DNA of 27,340 nucleotides, taken from positions 1 to 27,340 of IMG/VR virus record IMGVR_UViG_3300033144_004774; one strand, given 5' to 3'. Positions 49 to 22,106 of the stretch are shown in pieces. The notes below the pieces were generated by a model. It saw only the letters and a program-made list of their open reading frames with translations, was not told the origin of the DNA and did not search any database. A program made the position numbers and the translations under genes. Each line of letters opens with the position of its first letter. Within the stretch, counting starts at the first letter, position 1. Origin of the DNA: a virus.

Positions 49-66
49 GCCCCCCTATTGGAGGGC
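49..66 (-). repeat. Degenerate C6/G6 hairpin after the 63-aa gene
   Basis: A stem with C50-55, loop TATT and G60-65 carries one mismatch (A62). It is the same hairpin found perfectly at 308-325, 614-631 and 640-657. It lies 3' of the minus-strand gene ending at 95. There is no run of U after it, so it is not a classical intrinsic terminator. Confidence 0.65.
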
Positions 67-94: not shown

Positions 95-286
95 CTAGTA
101 GGCCTCGTAGACGAATTCGTCCTCGTCCCCCTCGATGCTCGCCATCGTGCTGTCCCAATGTTGCTCATCATTCCCTACCGACCCAACATTATTGCTACAC
201 CATTCCCGTAACTCGTCTCTCGATAAATTGTCGGGCGCCTCTATTGTTGTTGTTGCTATCCATGTTGTTGTTATTACTATGTTCAT
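95..286 (-). CDS. Small acidic protein, unknown function (63 aa)
   Basis: I do not recognise this protein. It starts with a hydrophobic, Thr-rich stretch (MNIVITTTWIATTTIEA) and continues into an acidic segment with a REW motif (LSRDELREW) that ends in EDEFVYEAY. The start at 286 is well supported: GGAG sits exactly 8 nt upstream of ATG, inside a 52-nt cassette identical to the one ahead of the next gene. The opposite strand gives only low-complexity Leu/Cys-rich translations. It is the last gene seen of a minus-strand array that probably continues left of the window. The REW motif is shared with the 85-aa neighbour, which hints at a common origin or at local nucleotide word bias. Confidence 0.6.
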   Translation of the reverse strand: MNIVITTTWIATTTIEAPDNLSRDELREWCSNNVGSVGNDEQHWDSTMASIEGDEDEFVYEAY

Positions 287-335
287 TATTGTTACTCCGA
301 TTGGGTGGCCCCCCTATTGGGGGGCTCTGGATTGC
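284..335 (-). promoter_or_regulatory. Hairpin-SD-start cassette, copy A
   Basis: Reading on the minus strand there is a hairpin GCCCCCC-AATA-GGGGGGC (308-325), then CACCCAATC, GGAG (295-298), an 8-nt spacer and ATG (284-286). The 52 nt are identical to 590-641, and the first 32 nt are identical to 1061-1092. This joins a probable RNA hairpin to the ribosome-binding site of the downstream gene. It resembles in logic the start-associated sequences with stem-loops of cluster K mycobacteriophages; that comparison is by analogy, not homology. Confidence 0.85.
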
Positions 336-592
336 TACTCCGTATAGGCTGCGTAGATTGCTGCTGCTCGATCCTCGGTCGCCTCCTCGCTCGGCCCTAT
401 TACAACTATTGATATGTGATTCCGGTCGCTCCTCCATTCCCGTACCAACATCCCGGCCTCCGTCCATTCCCGTACAACCATTCCCCATCCCGCTCCGTCC
501 GTGTTGTCTGCTGCTATTGCCTCCTCCCGTGTTGTGTATTGTTGTGTTGTTGTCTCGCCGTTGATTTCGTTGATCTCAGTTCGTGCTATCAT
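335..592 (-). CDS. Small hypothetical protein with two VREW motifs (85 aa)
   Basis: This protein is not recognised. The N-terminal part is Thr/Glu-rich (GETTTQQYTTREEAIAADN). The centre has two copies of VREW (VVREWTEAGMLVREW), each encoded by GTACGGGAATGG. The C-terminal part is a short hydrophobic strand (ISIVVIG) followed by an acidic helix with Ala/Tyr (AAAIYAAYTE). The start at 592 is fixed by the conserved cassette, with GGAG 8 nt upstream. Its 3' end (ACGGAGTAG) resembles the end of the zinc-ribbon gene (ACGGAGTAA), so both proteins end in Thr-Glu. It could be an early host-takeover type protein, but that rests only on its small size and position. Confidence 0.65.
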   Translation of the reverse strand: MIARTEINEINGETTTQQYTTREEAIAADNTDGAGWGMVVREWTEAGMLVREWRSDRNHISIVVIGPSEEATEDRAAAIYAAYTE

Positions 593-641
593 TATTGTTA
601 CTCCGATTGGGTGGCCCCCCTATTGGGGGGCTCTGGATTGC
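590..641 (-). promoter_or_regulatory. Hairpin-SD-start cassette, copy B
   Basis: All 52 nt match copy A. The hairpin is at 614-631 (six C, loop TATT, six G, closed by a G-C pair). GGAG (601-604) is followed by an 8-nt spacer and the ATG of the 85-aa gene. A second identical hairpin (640-657) follows directly, so this junction carries two hairpins back to back. Confidence 0.85.
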
Positions 642-657
642 CCCCCTATTGGGGGGC
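640..657 (-). repeat. Second C6/G6 hairpin between minus-strand genes
   Basis: This is a perfect GCCCCCC-TATT-GGGGGGC stem-loop just 3' of the zinc-ribbon gene stop (665-667) and directly next to the hairpin of copy B. On the minus strand the segment between the stop and the hairpin reads TAACAATAACG, which differs from the cassette start TAACAATAATG by one base in the start codon (ACG for ATG). This looks like a degenerate copy of the same cassette. Confidence 0.75.
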
Positions 658-664
658 GTTATTG

Positions 665-1063
665 TTACTCCGTATCGATGTACCATTGGTTGTCGTTGCT
701 ATCGTCCATGTAGTAACCGCCGGCCTCCGGTGTATCGTGCATCTCGATACTATTGTCTCCCCATTCCGTTGCTAATGTATCGTTGATTGCCTGTCTGGCG
801 GCTGCCATTGTTACGTACTCCCCGTAGTGTTCCGGGGCCATTCCCTCCTCGCTCCGGTCCACCGATACCATTCTGACTACCGCCTCCGTATTGCATTCCG
901 GGCATGTTGTGATCTCCTCGTGCACATTCTCTATTGTCGTGGTCCATTCGTGGTCGCACTCTGGACAGTAAATACTCCGGGTCCTCTCCTCTGGGTTGCT
1001 ACTATTGGTTGCTGTTGCTATTGTTGCTACTATTGTTGCTATTGCTGCTGCTATTGTTGTCAT
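665..1063 (-). CDS. Zinc-ribbon protein with repeat-encoded N-terminus (132 aa)
   Basis: The protein has a treble-clef or zinc-ribbon type metal site: YCPEC at about residues 32-36 and TCPEC about 17 residues later, giving CxxC-x17-CxxC. Such ribbons usually bind DNA, RNA or protein partners. The first 21 residues are almost only Ala, Thr, Ile and Val (MTTIAAAIATIVATIATAT). They are encoded by the same 9-nt microsatellite words seen between the genes, so the N-terminus may have grown from intergenic repeat. The C-terminal half is acidic and ends NDNQWYIDTE. The start at 1063 has the conserved cassette (GGAG, 8-nt spacer). The exact role is unknown. Confidence 0.7.
   Translation of the reverse strand: MTTIAAAIATIVATIATATNSSNPEERTRSIYCPECDHEWTTTIENVHEEITTCPECNTEAVVRMVSVDRSEEGMAPEHYGEYVTMAAARQAINDTLATEWGDNSIEMHDTPEAGGYYMDDSNDNQWYIDTE
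1002..1056 (-). repeat. Trinucleotide-phased microsatellite inside the zinc-ribbon gene
   Basis: The plus strand reads as ATTGCT, ATTGTT and ACTATT words in tandem. On the coding strand these give Ala/Ile/Thr/Val codons. Because the unit is a multiple of three, changes in copy number would alter protein length without shifting frame. Confidence 0.6.
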
Positions 1064-1102
1064 TATTGTTACTCCGATTGGGTGGCCCCCCTGTCGGGGG
1101 GC
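1061..1102 (-). promoter_or_regulatory. Hairpin-SD-start cassette, copy C
   Basis: The first 32 nt (1061-1092) are identical to copies A and B. The hairpin (1085-1102) keeps the six C and six G of the stem but the loop is TGTC instead of TATT on the plus strand. A changed loop with an intact stem suggests that the stem is what matters. GGAG lies 8 nt ahead of the ATG at 1061-1063. Confidence 0.85.
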
Positions 1103-1119
1103 TATTGCTATTGTTACTA

Positions 1120-1590
1120 CTATTGGTTACTACTGGCGGCTATTACGTCGCTGGCTACTATGTCTCCTCTCTTGATTGCATTGCGGATCCGATTGCCGGA
1201 GTTCATTCTCTGTTGGCCTGGGTTCAAATTACGGTATTTCGTCCATAATATGCCGGGCTCCATTCCCAATACCGCCTCTGCCAACTCCACCACGTCCCTC
1301 GGGCTCATTCCAGCTAACTGCCGGGCTACCTCGTCCCCATTGTGTAAGCTCTTATTCCCGCTGCTCGATACCGCCTCGGTGTATCCTCCTCGGTAGGCAG
1401 CCAATTGGCTGGCCATTCTCCGGGGGGCGGCATTCTCTACGGCCAATACCTCGGCCAATTCCGCCTTATTCATTCTCTGTGCTGCTCCGGCTCCCATTCC
1501 GGTCTCTATTGCTGCTGCTACTAATTCCGATTTACTCATTCCCGCTATTGCTGCGGCATTCTGGTCTGCATTCTGGTTCTGATTACTCAT
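1120..1590 (-). CDS. Putative Rho_N/SAP-like DNA- or RNA-binding protein (156 aa)
   Basis: Residues about 18-50 (MSKSELVAAAIETGMG, then RMNKAELAEVLA) have the small-helix pattern of Rho N-terminal or SAP/HeH-type domains, which bind nucleic acid. The match is by eye and weak. The N-terminus is Asn/Gln-rich (MSNQNQNADQNAAAI). The C-terminal half contains LNPGQQRMNSGNRIRNAIKR, a basic helical stretch that could also bind nucleic acid. The start at 1590 has GGAG at an 8-nt spacing within CAATCGGAGTA, the core shared with the downstream cassettes. It is the first gene after the minus-strand promoters and lies next to the parS-like site, so a regulator or segregation partner is possible; this is inference. 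Confidence 0.65.
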   Translation of the reverse strand: MSNQNQNADQNAAAIAGMSKSELVAAAIETGMGAGAAQRMNKAELAEVLAVENAAPRRMASQLAAYRGGYTEAVSSSGNKSLHNGDEVARQLAGMSPRDVVELAEAVLGMEPGILWTKYRNLNPGQQRMNSGNRIRNAIKRGDIVASDVIAASSNQ

Positions 1591-1634
1591 TCTGTGTACT
1601 CCGATTGCGCCTGCTCCCTATATCGGGTGCGGGC

Positions 1635-1654: not shown

Positions 1655-1671
1655 GCCCCCCTGCGGGGGGT
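1655..1671 (-). repeat. C6/G6 hairpin in the leader of the minus-strand operon
   Basis: C1656-1661 pair with G1665-1670 around a TGC loop. The arms match the hairpins between the downstream genes. Here the parS-like palindrome separates the hairpin from the ribosome site, unlike the compact cassettes A to C. Confidence 0.65.
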
Positions 1672-1715: not shown

Positions 1716-1862
1716 CTAGTTACCATTATACAGCAATCCGGCCCCGGAGTCAAGTACCCGGAGCCCGCGTCCGCCGGGGGCTGTACGGCCAGCCGGCGCA
1801 ATCCCGCCGGAGCCCCCGGCGGACGCGGGCTGTAGGCATTGCGATTCCCGTCGAACTTTCAT
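1716..1862 (-). CDS. Possible 48-aa leader peptide spanning the inverted repeat
   Basis: An open frame starts at ATG 1860-1862 behind GAGGAAATA, a good ribosome site at 5-nt spacing. It ends at TAG 1716-1718. It would be read only from the upstream minus promoter (1978-2006). The product is Gly/Pro/Arg-rich (PASAGGSGG, TAPGGRG) because the frame crosses both arms of the 21-bp inverted repeat and the downstream promoter. This composition looks like translated structure, so a true protein is doubtful. An attenuator-style leader is one reading; chance is another. Confidence 0.25.
   Translation of the reverse strand: MKVRRESQCLQPASAGGSGGIAPAGRTAPGGRGLRVLDSGAGLLYNGN
1725..1753 (-). promoter_or_regulatory. 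Minus-strand sigma70 promoter, proximal
   Basis: On the minus strand there is TTGACT (1748-1753), a 17-bp spacer and TATAAT (1725-1730): one mismatch to the consensus -35 and a perfect -10. Transcription would start near 1718 and give a leader of about 128 nt before the gene starting at 1590. Its flanks (TACTTGAC and TATAATGGTA) are the same as those of the distal promoter, so the two look like a duplication. Confidence 0.8.
1762..1831. repeat. Perfect 21-bp inverted repeat with nested hairpin
   Basis: The arm at 1762-1782 is the exact reverse complement of 1811-1831. The 28-nt loop contains a smaller inverted repeat (CCGGCG at 1793-1798 with CGCCGG at 1805-1810). A related CCGGCGGATTGCGC word recurs in direct orientation at 1681-1694. 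Such nested GC-rich structure between divergent promoters, about 300 bp ahead of the terminase small-subunit gene, could be an origin, a packaging (cos or pac) element or an attenuator. The sequence does not decide between them. Confidence 0.75.
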
Positions 1863-1977: not shown

Positions 1978-2006
1978 ATTATACCACACTCCGGACGTCC
2001 TGTCAA
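1978..2006 (-). promoter_or_regulatory. Minus-strand sigma70 promoter, distal (perfect consensus)
   Basis: On the minus strand there is TTGACA (2001-2006), a 17-bp spacer and TATAAT (1978-1983). Both hexamers and the spacer are exact consensus. It points at the accessory array. It lies back to back with the plus-strand promoter at 2058, with only about 50 bp between the two -35 boxes. Confidence 0.85.
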
Positions 2007-2127: not shown

Positions 2128-2346
2128 ATGAACACTCAAAGAAAACCCGCAGTACACCCATATTTGGCCGACCATGAATTGGCCGAAAACGTGTTAGACG
2201 AGGGAGTACTAGAGCAACGTAGAATTATTTTAGATAATTTACTATTAAATTCGCCAATTGTAGTGGCGCAACGAATTAGAGTGGAGCATACAAAAGAATG
2301 CATGAAGTTTCCGGAAATATTGCTTCCATCTACGCTGATATTGTAA
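2128..2346 (+). CDS. Small hypothetical protein opening the structural operon (72 aa)
   Basis: This protein is not recognised. It looks like a mostly helical soluble protein (HELAENVLDEGVLEQRRIILDN) with a hydrophobic end (PEILLPSTLIL). The ATG follows a purine-rich GAGGGGGG at a short distance. It overlaps the start of the terminase small-subunit frame by 49 nt, so the two are probably translated together. It is the first product from the strong plus-strand promoter. It may assist packaging or be an early product; no motif supports either choice. Confidence 0.6.
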   Translation: MNTQRKPAVHPYLADHELAENVLDEGVLEQRRIILDNLLLNSPIVVAQRIRVEHTKECMKFPEILLPSTLIL

Positions 2347-2804
2347 GTGATAAGTTTGATTTTAGTAAAATGGAACCCGAATATCGGGCATTTGCTATTG
2401 AATACGTCACTAATGGATATAAGCATAGAGAAGCGGCAGAACAAGCAGGAATGCATCCAAACAGGGGCGTTCATTTAAAAAGAATTCCAGTTGTTGTTGA
2501 TTTTATTATCCAATTACAAAACAGGAATCTAACGGAATCCATTGTAACAAAGCAATCGTTGGATTGTTTATTGGACCGCATACAAGAAGCGGCAATGGGC
2601 GAAGTTCCTATTTCTATTGTTTTGGCAAATGGCCAGAGGGTGGAGCAAGAAAAATTCCAAGGGTCATTGGCCATGGATGTTTATAGAGAGAAAGCAAAAC
2701 TCCATGAAATAGTGAAACCAGATGAAGAATCCGGCACTATTAGGATTGAAGTAGTTCCGTCGGCACGTGATTCAGAAGGCAACCCACTAGAAGATACAGA
2801 ATGA
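2298..2804 (+). CDS. terS: Terminase small subunit
   Basis: The small subunit recognises the packaging site on concatemeric phage DNA and recruits the large subunit. Residues about 25-65 (EYRAFAIEYVTNGYKHREAAEQAGMHPNRG, split here over a helix-turn-helix) have the pattern of the phage Terminase_2-like DNA-binding domain: an aromatic helix, then REAAEQAG and an N-x-G turn. The rest is helical and should drive oligomerisation. The usual length is 150-180 residues, and this one has 168. The start is uncertain: an internal Met (MEPEY, near 2370) would remove the first 24 residues and end the overlap with the preceding gene. It overlaps the next gene by ATGA. Identification rests on motif pattern and position ahead of the large subunit. 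Confidence 0.75.
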   Translation: MHEVSGNIASIYADIVSDKFDFSKMEPEYRAFAIEYVTNGYKHREAAEQAGMHPNRGVHLKRIPVVVDFIIQLQNRNLTESIVTKQSLDCLLDRIQEAAMGEVPISIVLANGQRVEQEKFQGSLAMDVYREKAKLHEIVKPDEESGTIRIEVVPSARDSEGNPLEDTE

Positions 2805-10034: not shown

Positions 10035-10495
10035 TGGCCGATAACGTCACAGTAACAACAGCGGAAGACGTAATAACCGTTGTTGACCCTACAACCTCAG
10101 TCCCAGTATCTATCATTGAGGAAATTGTTAGTGTCGGGTCGGGCGTTGACCAAATTAATGTTACTGCGACAGAAGAAACTGTTCAAGTAACAGAAGTCAC
10201 TGATTCTACTGTAGTGACAGATGTACAAGAGATCATACAGCCTCAAGTTGCCGAGGTTCAAGTTCAAATAGTTGAGGATTCTAACGTGCCGTACGCAAAA
10301 AGAACAGACTTCATAACTGGAACGGACGACATTTACAGGGGCGATGCCGCTGTTGGGTCGGCTGAATCGGCGGCTGTGTGGAGAATCAGAAAATTAGAAA
10401 TAAATGCGGAAGGCGACGTAACAGAATTATGGGCCGCAGGAACGGCTTCATTTGACAAAATTTGGGATGATAGAGCCTCAGAGGCATATTCCTGA
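10034..10495 (+). CDS. Putative virion protein, repetitive N-terminus with conserved C-terminal module (153 aa)
   Basis: Residues 1-85 are Val/Thr/Glu repeats with beta character (VTVTTAED, VTATEETVQVTEVTDS). The C-terminal 65 residues carry YAKRTDF, DIYRGDAAVGS, VWRIRKLEI and IWDDRASEAY. I associate this pattern with small structural proteins found in many environmental siphophage genomes. Its role is unsettled. The gene is coupled to both neighbours by TAATG and TGATG overlaps, which suggests fixed stoichiometry with the next large protein. Confidence 0.6.
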   Translation: MADNVTVTTAEDVITVVDPTTSVPVSIIEEIVSVGSGVDQINVTATEETVQVTEVTDSTVVTDVQEIIQPQVAEVQVQIVEDSNVPYAKRTDFITGTDDIYRGDAAVGSAESAAVWRIRKLEINAEGDVTELWAAGTASFDKIWDDRASEAYS

Positions 10496-19400: not shown

Positions 19401-22106
19401 ATGGCAGATTTGCAAAAAACAGTAGACATAACATTTCGTGCTCATGATAAAACGGAGGGAGCAGTAGAATCTGTGTCTTCTAGAATGTCGTCGTTGGAAG
19501 CTCACATAGGCAGTGTTACTGGTCCGATAGCCAATCTTACCCTGTCAGTCCTAAAATACGAGGCTGTCATTGCTGGTTTGGCCGCCGCATATGCCGCATT
19601 CACAATAAAACAAGCCGCCGACTTTGAATCGGCGCAAATTAGTTTGGCTAAAGTTCTTACTGGTAGTCCGGACAGTGTAGCTGAGTCAATGATCATTGCT
19701 TCTGCTGAGGCAGTTAGACTTTCAGAAAAATACGGCCTATCTTCTTCTATTATTCTACAGGGGATGGCACAATTCAAACAGTCGGGCTTTACAGCGTTAG
19801 AAGCGGCTACGCTACAAAAAACAGCCATGGATTTGGTTATTGCTGGCGGAGTAAACGCCGCTACAGCAACGAACCTATTGACTCGTTCTCTTATTGGGTT
19901 TGGGGCAGAAGCGAATGAAGCTACAAGATTCGCCGAGGCATTAAACAACGTATCGAACAGATATAACACTAACTTAGAGTTACTAGCACTTGGCATGAGT
20001 AAGTTATCGCCAATTGCTAGTTTAATGGGATTTACGTTCGAAGAAACGGCCGGTCTTATTACTCCTATTATTGAAGTATTTGGTTCTGGTCGTGAGGCCG
20101 CAACTGCATTAAAAACAGGGCTATTAAAACTTGTTGATGATGCCAAGCCCGTGGTGGATGCACTAACAAGTTTAGGAATTACTCAATTTCAATTAAATGG
20201 AGAAATGAAAACCGGGAAGGAAATATTTTTTGAAGTAGCAAGGGCTTTTGAACTATTAACTCAAAAACAAAGAATAACATTCACTTCACAACTAGTCGGC
20301 ATTGAACAGTCCGGCCGAATGGCGACTGTTTTTAGTAATTTAGCGAAGGTTAATGAAATTACTGCAGTGGCGATGGAGAGAACAGGGTCGGTCACAAAAG
20401 AAGTTACTTTAAGATTAGATTCTGCAACAGTACAAGCATCCCGTACTGCCCAAGCTTTCAATAATATGTCCGTTGAAATTGGCACTAAATTATTGCCCGG
20501 GTTCGATGATGCAAACGAGGGTCTTCGTATATTATTGGCGTCTTTCAGGGAAGTTGTTGCTGACGGAGGTCTTGACCCCCTATTTGACTCTATTAATTCT
20601 GAAGGAGTAGAATTAAAAGACTTTTTAGTGGAAATAGCAAAAATTCTTCCCCAAGTATTTGCCGACTTAGATTTTGATGAATTAATATCATCTTTTGGCA
20701 AATTAAAAGAAGAGGTATCGGAACTTTTTGGCGATTTAGATTTAACAAAACCTGAGGATTTAACCTTAGCTCTTCAAAAAGTAATAAATTTTTTAGGGTT
20801 AATGACCAATGCCACATCGGGCGTAGTAAGAGGATTCTCACCTTTCATCGACGCTCTTACTGGTATGTTGGAAAAACTAGCGAAATTTGACCCTGATGAT
20901 CAAGATTTTATTGGTTTTTTGGCTGGAACCTTAACCGGCATTAATGCCATACTTCCAGCAATGGGATTTGCTACACTTGCATTGGTAATACTGGGGACGA
21001 AGTTCAGGGCAGTAGCCTCTGCCAAATTTATTGCGTTTCTTGGTTTTGTTATTTCCAAAATGCCTTTATTTACACCCCTCGGTGCGGCTGTAGTGGCTTC
21101 CATTTCTGCGGTTAATATAGCTGTATTAGCGGGCATAGATGCTTATGATGAGTACAATAAACGCCAAGATAAAGTAAATGAGGCTTGGATTGATAATTAT
21201 AAAAATTCAGCACTTTTGGAAGATGGCTATGCCAGAATAACTAAAGCTACAAGAATATTAATAACTAACACTGAAGAGTTTAATTCCGCATTAGATCAGG
21301 GGTTAATAGTTCAAGATGATTCAGTAGTGGGTTGGAAAAGGGCAGGTGCGGCACTTGATGATCTTGGCACCGATGTAACATCTGCTGGAGATACCGTCAA
21401 GAAATACGATGCAGAAGTTGAAAAGATGGCACTTTCATCAGAGAAGGCTAGCAAAAAGGTCGTATCTTTTGCAGATGCGGCAAATGCCGTGGCTGCTAGC
21501 TTAGGCATAGCAAACCCAAAACTAGCAAAAGGGGCAGATAGCTTAAAAAAAGTTGAAGAGACAGCAAAGGATGCTGATACAGCATTGGAAAAATTATCGG
21601 ATCGAGAAAAGCTAGTCATAAAGCACACCCATGACATGGAAAAGACTCTCTTAGAGTTAGCATCTAATGAAAAAATAAGAAGCATGGAGTTTGTTGTAGA
21701 TATAAAAATTGCACAAATAGAAGCAGAAGCCCAAAAGGTTGAAGCGGTGTTTGAAAGCATTTCTTCAGCAGTAGAATCAACCCAAGCCGCAACTGCTGAT
21801 ATGTTTGACTCGTTCGCTCAAGTTTACGGAGATTTGGATTTACGTGAAAAATGGGATTTAGAACGGCTTTTGACGGAACAAACAGAGCAAGCACAACAAG
21901 CACTTGATTTACAGAAAAAAGCAGTAGAGGCACAAATAGAACTATGGGAAGCCCAAGCAGATTCACTAACTAATGGTCTGGATATAGCTATTACTGCGGA
22001 TGGGTTAGAACCAGAGATAGAAGCGTTTATGTTTAAAATACTTGAAAGAATACAAACAAAAATATCGGGTGATAAAACATCATTTTTATTAGGGGCAGGA
22101 ATATGA
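19401..22106 (+). CDS. Tail tape measure protein (TP901-type)
   Basis: It sets tail length and is ejected during DNA entry. Residues about 60-370 carry the TP901-family core (KQAADFESAQISLAKVL, ILQGMAQFKQSGFTALEA, then NALNNVSNRYNT-like and GLITPIIEVFGSGREAATALKTGL segments). Hydrophobic helices at about 507-585 (LPAMGFATLALVILG, FIAFLGFVISKMP, AAVVASISAVNIAVLAG) could insert into the inner membrane. The C-terminal 200 residues are coiled coil. At about 1.5 angstrom per residue the 901 residues predict a tail of roughly 135 nm. The start follows the chaperone fusion by 2 nt, and the stop overlaps the next start (ATGA). Confidence 0.9.
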   Translation: MADLQKTVDITFRAHDKTEGAVESVSSRMSSLEAHIGSVTGPIANLTLSVLKYEAVIAGLAAAYAAFTIKQAADFESAQISLAKVLTGSPDSVAESMIIASAEAVRLSEKYGLSSSIILQGMAQFKQSGFTALEAATLQKTAMDLVIAGGVNAATATNLLTRSLIGFGAEANEATRFAEALNNVSNRYNTNLELLALGMSKLSPIASLMGFTFEETAGLITPIIEVFGSGREAATALKTGLLKLVDDAKPVVDALTSLGITQFQLNGEMKTGKEIFFEVARAFELLTQKQRITFTSQLVGIEQSGRMATVFSNLAKVNEITAVAMERTGSVTKEVTLRLDSATVQASRTAQAFNNMSVEIGTKLLPGFDDANEGLRILLASFREVVADGGLDPLFDSINSEGVELKDFLVEIAKILPQVFADLDFDELISSFGKLKEEVSELFGDLDLTKPEDLTLALQKVINFLGLMTNATSGVVRGFSPFIDALTGMLEKLAKFDPDDQDFIGFLAGTLTGINAILPAMGFATLALVILGTKFRAVASAKFIAFLGFVISKMPLFTPLGAAVVASISAVNIAVLAGIDAYDEYNKRQDKVNEAWIDNYKNSALLEDGYARITKATRILITNTEEFNSALDQGLIVQDDSVVGWKRAGAALDDLGTDVTSAGDTVKKYDAEVEKMALSSEKASKKVVSFADAANAVAASLGIANPKLAKGADSLKKVEETAKDADTALEKLSDREKLVIKHTHDMEKTLLELASNEKIRSMEFVVDIKIAQIEAEAQKVEAVFESISSAVESTQAATADMFDSFAQVYGDLDLREKWDLERLLTEQTEQAQQALDLQKKAVEAQIELWEAQADSLTNGLDIAITADGLEPEIEAFMFKILERIQTKISGDKTSFLLGAGI

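Follow-up and report, generated by a model that had tools for sequence, protein, structure and literature searches.

A repeated hairpin and ribosome-binding-site cassette ahead of small leftward early genes in a tailed-phage fragment

Three small consecutive genes at the left end of a viral DNA fragment each begin with practically the same hairpin and ribosome-binding site (RBS), which raises the question of how such a start came to be shared and what it might do. The fragment of 27,340 bases (hereafter the window, i.e. the whole stretch of DNA analysed) is classed as a virus record and is a piece of a tailed phage: its rightward genes encode the terminase, portal, protease, capsid and tape measure proteins, with the last being its largest reading frame (901 aa). 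The left end carries four small leftward genes, the only early genes visible, and the following features:

49..66, minus: extra hairpin with one stem change, after gene 95-286
95..286, minus: gene for a 63-aa orphan protein
284..335, minus: third copy of the cassette, with an AATA loop, at the start of gene 95-286; direct repeat with copy 2 around gene 335-592
308..325, minus: 7-bp hairpin of copy 3, from the hairpin pattern search
331..342, minus: CGGAGTAGCAAT, by the stop codon that ends gene 335-592
335..592, minus: gene for an 85-aa orphan protein
590..641, minus: second copy of the cassette, with an AATA loop, at the start of gene 335-592; matches copy 3 over 52 nt
614..631, minus: 7-bp hairpin of copy 2, from the same search
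640..657, minus: extra exact hairpin lacking an RBS, just past the stop of gene 665-1063 and in tandem with copy 2
661..672, minus: CGGAGTAACAAT, made of the RBS words, by the stop codon that ends gene 665-1063
665..1063, minus: gene for a 132-aa protein with an FmdB-like zinc ribbon and a low-complexity N-terminus
1061..1104, minus: cassette copy 1, GACA loop, before gene 665-1063
1085..1102, minus: 7-bp hairpin of copy 1, from the same search
1120..1590, minus: lead early gene, 156 aa, phrog_8941/phrog_8878
1597..1607, minus: CAATCGGAGTA core ahead of the lead gene
1656..1670, minus: related hairpin in the lead gene's leader (6-bp stem, 3-nt GCA loop, then CCGCCC)
1725..1753, minus: sigma-70-type promoter match, 11/12, preceding the early operon
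1978..2006, minus: sigma-70-type promoter match, 12/12, preceding the early operon
2298..2804, plus: terminase small subunit (terS), divergent from the early operon, as in the related loci L005-L008

The early region and its genes

The early region has a G+C content of 53-56%, against about 40% for the remainder of the fragment. In L005-L008 a homologue of the lead gene likewise lies about 1 kb from a divergent homologue of terS, with a similar jump in G+C. As both the layout and the jump recur in these relatives, the early region belongs to the phage and its arrangement is natural; the same pairing and jump lead us to reject a chimeric contig as the main reading. Composition is peculiar on the early sense strand (minus, window 95-1590): T makes up 14%, the dinucleotide CT occurs at 0.30 of expectation and none of the 14 leucines uses a CTN codon, a CT deficit that is not common to the relatives. 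The hexamer CAATAG is observed 21 times in the early region against an expected 0.57. Further peculiarities of this end are a perfect 21-bp inverted repeat (1762-1782/1811-1831) in the GC-rich gap separating early and late genes, a palindrome that is parS-like by sequence (TGTTCCACGTGGAACG, 1630-1650) in the lead-gene leader, and a low-complexity repeat of the GTTGGGGGT type at the contig end (1-46), which perhaps caused the assembly to break there.

Relatives of the lead protein occur in phages of Vibrio, Alteromonas, Stenotrophomonas and Burkholderia and at no fewer than 77 further viral loci; the family is marked by an NPGQxRMNxGNR motif, an early position and, often, two or three paralogues per phage. 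Its fold is confidently predicted as mostly alpha (pLDDT 91.7); a search with the model recovered no significant match in the PDB (E 0.77), only its own phage family, and the N-terminal part of the model may weakly resemble SAP/Rho-N folds. The nearest relative by terminase, L021 (64%), yielded no homologue of the lead gene. For the zinc-ribbon protein, the homologue search returned only a 14-residue match.

A scan for sigma-70-type promoters found none within the cassette array or between the early genes. The GC hairpins ahead of these genes do bring to mind the hairpin promoters in single-stranded DNA that the N4 type of virion RNA polymerase uses, but those have 3-nt loops, as opposed to the 4-nt loops here, and need a virion polymerase of 3400-3500 aa (PMC3715699), whereas the largest frame in this fragment of an incomplete genome is the 901-aa one. 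Given also that the operon is led by sigma-70-type promoter matches, this reading is disfavoured and strikes us as extremely improbable.

Make-up and copies of the cassette

On the minus strand, ahead of genes 665-1063, 335-592 and 95-286, the cassette reads AGCCCCCC-loop-GGGGGGCCACCCAATCGGAGTAACAATAATG. The original prediction had noted identical 32-nt blocks (1061-1092, 590-621 and 284-315, minus strand), two of them identical over 52 nt, each with a 7-bp hairpin, GGAG at 8 nt and the ATG, and a CAATCGGAGTA core ahead of the first gene of the array; all of these are present, and the shared unit is in fact longer, at 43 nt. It comprises a 7-bp GCCCCCC/GGGGGGC hairpin whose stem ends 10 nt before GGAG, the CCACCCAATC linker, GGAG itself, an 8-nt spacer and the ATG. 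Among the three copies there are two substitutions, both in the loop (GACA versus AATA), in agreement with the earlier remark that the stem is kept while the loop changes; compensatory changes, which had been proposed as something to look for in a comparison of stems, do not occur between the copies. The cassettes are confined to one strand of a single 1.7-kb early region, with no hairpin of the kind in the other 25.6 kb. The hairpin pattern GCCCCCCNNNNGGGGGGC occurs four times in the window as against 0.00 in 100 shuffles, CAATCGGAGTA with at most one mismatch five times against an expected 0.35, and the 52-nt pair is the top-scoring repeated start region among 3033 predicted starts drawn from about 100 related loci and from the window itself. 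The cassette is real and non-random, and probably functional.

Similar elements also lie outside the three starts. Besides the exact hairpin at 640-657 and the 6-bp one in the lead gene's leader, the hairpin at 49-66 carries a C to U change in its 5' arm. In the minus-strand RNA the changed position still pairs, as U-G, but on the plus strand it is a mismatch; pairing retained solely in that RNA is a single event and weak evidence. The RBS words CGGAGTARCAAT are found again at two stop codons (661-672 and 331-342), and thus the two genes that end there are flanked by short direct repeats. Gene 335-592 additionally lies between the perfect 52-nt direct repeats. The proteins downstream of the three cassettes show no similarity to each other detectable by blastp, which indicates that the cassette spread without its gene.

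The hairpins do not have the form of intrinsic terminators, as the stems are followed in minus-strand RNA by CCACCC or CAATCC and not by a U run; a search of the minus strand gave no terminator match. The reading that we hold to be on balance the probable one sees in the cassette an intercistronic hairpin-RBS module of the leftward early operon, copied by recombination, that supplies every gene with a separate start and with structure at the RNA end. All three cassettes have the GC hairpin a little upstream of the Shine-Dalgarno sequence (SD) and start that is characteristic of such leaders, a feature whose place relatives retain with differing sequence.

Structure in the same slot among relatives

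The cassette sequence itself is restricted to this fragment in everything searched: exact patterns of 31, 22 and 20 nt gave no further copy in IMG/VR, and none was found in annotated phages or plasmids or in 1.3 Mb of related loci, so the expectation of copies in relatives did not hold. Nor did the window match any known RNA family at the Rfam gathering score, with only chance-level matches at E 5; positions 1-2200 gave no Rfam ribozyme match even at E 5, and a scan of the whole window found no hammerhead core.

The relatives nevertheless keep the layout, i.e. structure in the slot, without the cassette sequence. Among 48 lead-gene leaders, 22 have a perfect stem of at least 5 bp ahead of the RBS as against 6.5 in shuffles, and 11 have one of at least 6 bp as against 1.7. 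The stems vary in sequence, as in GGTGGCGGG/CCCGCCACC, CCGGGGCGC/GCGCCCCGG and CAATTGGC/GCCAATTG, and differ in register, which made RNAalifold on aligned leaders uninformative; hence the test was performed per leader. In six relatives (L043, L044, L047, L051, L055 and L057) the stem begins a few nucleotides past a TATAAT-like box, as would a 5'-terminal hairpin. Across all predicted starts, an upstream stem is found at 22.8% of the early genes (8.8% in shuffles) and, with a smaller excess, at 17.8% of the late genes of the same phages (8.1% in shuffles). Since the late genes also exceed chance, the upstream stem is not specific to early genes.

These stems bear on a neutral origin, whereby a GC palindrome and AATAG-rich words would have multiplied through slippage or short duplications in a region of unusual composition. 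The excess of CAATAG, the low-complexity ends and the presence of six hairpins, three of them with no adjoining RBS, are what such expansion would leave behind; against this, the SD, spacing and ATG are exact in three copies and the relatives retain stems of other sequence, making a purely neutral repeat very unlikely.

The same slot holds further kinds of RNA element in the relatives. Hammerhead ribozymes lie directly before early-gene RBSs in seven of them: type III in L008 (32.1 bits, below the Rfam gathering score) and L005, and type II in L015, L069, L071, L084 and L104, of which the L071 example, at 41.4 bits, exceeds the Rfam gathering score of 37. Complemented control sequence contained no hammerheads. 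Several relatives instead have ANGGAC hexaloop hairpins closed by a C-G pair in the slot, the high-affinity form bound by CsrA/RsmE (PMC4005645).

L084:696-751, 1101-1152 and 2102-2155: hammerheads, three near-identical copies
L069:8751-8803 and L071:7467-7528: hammerheads
L015:9273-9331 and 10113-10187: hammerheads
L005:10492-10538, L008:7954-8002 and L104 (minus strand): hammerheads
L005:10443, 11538, 12267 and 14122, and L008:7937 and 8242: C-ANGGAC-G hairpins
L009:5438, 5572 and 6015, and L038, L049, L090, L093 and others: C-ANGGAC-G hairpins

An RBS and ATG lie downstream of 13 of 51 ANGGAN hairpins as against none of 97 with the other three first letters, the figure for hexaloop hairpins overall being 4.7%. 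The C-ANGGAC-G hairpins are nearly all on the early strand, often directly ahead of an RBS and ATG, and judging by their sequence could possibly serve in the early RNA of these phages as CsrA sites or as decoys. The early genes of the window are preceded by neither hammerheads nor ANGGAN hairpins, and its sole ANGGAN hairpin, at 21869, lies in a late gene.

Repeated start cassettes are also present in L102, L103, L104 and L084. Promoter-leader-RBS cassettes recur in L104 (minus strand), L102 (5219, 5589 and 8989) and L103 (6116 and 6967). In L104 one RBS tail stands behind a promoter leader in some places and behind a hammerhead in others, which points to a shuffling of modules. Such recurrence, the two genes flanked by CGGAGTARCAAT, the 52-nt repeats around gene 335-592 and the unrelated downstream proteins would all fit a module acting purely at the DNA level, with the repeats serving as homology to add, lose or swap small genes and no regulation beyond the supply of an RBS. 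Taken alone, however, this leaves the GC stem kept in the relatives' slot unexplained, and we regard it as quite unlikely to be the whole account. The related suggestion in the original prediction, that the cassette lets genes be added, agrees with what is seen: it stands before three unlike proteins, and gene 335-592 sits between 52-nt repeats, as would be expected.

A possible start module and its counterparts

The observations that count for the intercistronic hairpin-RBS module are the chance tests, the unrelated proteins downstream, the conserved terS-divergent layout in L005-L008, the family-wide structure in the slot, the hammerheads occupying that slot, the RBS tail reused behind different 5' modules in L104, the lack of internal promoters and U runs, and the engineered parallel of ribozyme-plus-hairpin insulators (PMC6993053). 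Under this reading, the polycistronic early RNA would be punctuated, with a strong start for every small gene. Hairpins at 5' ends, like the hairpin of ribozyme insulators, shield the RNA downstream of them; by analogy, the stem could form a structured boundary that protects the downstream RNA once the upstream part has been processed or has decayed. The copies would have arisen by recombination or conversion between cassettes, and their identical flanks would let small genes be gained or lost between them. Phage early regions rapidly acquire and shed small genes whose function is not known. The cassette, if it is indeed a start module that is copied with its structure built in, would be one way for a newly arrived gene to be expressed at once.

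The simplest version of the module, in which the stem insulates or exposes the RBS, is not supported by computed folds: across the three cassettes, the upstream part gave no consistent gain in RBS exposure relative to shuffled upstream parts (RBS region unpaired 0.75, 0.52 and 0.75, versus 0.67, 0.66 and 0.72 with the upstream part shuffled), and the SD is unpaired to only 0.31-0.36 in the cassette folds. Moreover, a purely structural role would not need the invariant CCACCCAATC linker, which recent copying or sequence recognition would explain.

Recognition is central to an alternative in which the cassettes are RNA operators, bound by an antisense RNA or by an RNA-binding protein of the host or the phage (perhaps the product of the lead gene), so that the three genes are controlled together. 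It would account for the linker being kept along with the stem and SD, and for the partial pairing of the SD with ACCC of the linker in the computed fold; the CsrA/RsmE-type hairpins in the relatives' slot offer a parallel, and the weakly SAP/Rho-N-like N-terminal part of the lead protein would make that protein at most a candidate. The operator nonetheless has no known partner, the insignificant PDB match of the lead protein lends it none, the AATA and GACA loops lack the GGA that the ANGGAN rule requires of a CsrA target, and the cassette is conserved nowhere beyond this fragment; we see the operator as unlikely. A broader version is in our estimate also rather unlikely: in the early operons of the family, every small gene would be preceded by the same kind of slot, in which various RNA devices (hairpins, hammerheads or CsrA/RsmE-type elements) can replace one another, and the one identical cassette before every visible downstream early gene here would be the common operator of a phage-encoded regulator. 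The original prediction had likewise envisaged a shared post-transcriptional switch. With no trans-acting partner found, no compensatory stem change, no copy in the sequences searched and no consistent effect in folding, the switch is a hypothesis that these results do not support.

Returning to the intercistronic hairpin-RBS module, several known systems resemble it in part. The SAS of cluster K mycobacteriophages is a 13-bp GGGATAGGAGCCC-like word found 3-7 bp before starts in 11-19 copies per genome, and the ESAS adds 17-bp imperfect inverted repeats upstream (PMC3203893). Like these, the cassette is a block repeated at the RBS of small non-structural genes of differing families in one orientation. 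Unlike the SAS word, which has no stem, it reads CCACCCAATCGGAGTAACAATAATG, an unrelated sequence, with three full copies in the fragment; and unlike the ESAS it has a perfect 7-bp stem with a 4-nt loop adjoining the RBS in every copy. The cluster K parallel drawn in the original prediction thus stands as regards a repeated block at starts but not as regards stem-loops, since the authors of the ESAS work found little support for mRNA hairpins and considered DNA-binding sites more likely (PMC3203893).

Hammerheads flanking genes in prophages and phages are also known (PMC3088659; Rfam RF02276, RF00008). They resemble the cassette as RNA elements that sit in the gaps between early genes, right ahead of the RBS, and occur in relatives of this phage; whereas they have a CUGANGA and GAAA core and three stems, the cassette is a plain hairpin without a known catalytic motif, and its identification as a hammerhead is rejected given the absence of the core from the window. 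Identification as a CsrA/RsmE hairpin, i.e. an ANGGAN hexaloop on a stem (PMC4005645), likewise fails on its loops. The T4 gene 43 translational operator is similarly a hairpin in phage mRNA ahead of a start, and related phages have bases of its loop in common, but it serves one gene and has a known binding protein, whereas the cassette serves three and is without a known partner (PMC3014915). RiboJ-type insulators, like the cassette, have a hairpin immediately ahead of the RBS in every unit, and they also stabilise mRNA; they differ from it in being synthetic and including a ribozyme (PMC6993053), and the RBS exposure was not reproduced by folding of the cassette.

The elements in the slot can be seen as natural parts comparable to such synthetic ribozyme insulators, and the pattern of hairpins, hammerheads and CsrA-type elements across the relatives, which frames how phages punctuate polycistronic early RNA, merits more attention than the single fragment. 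Among published repeats at phage starts the cluster K SAS comes closest, though the parallel is partial, and the cassette adds a variant to the structured RBS modules of phage early genes.
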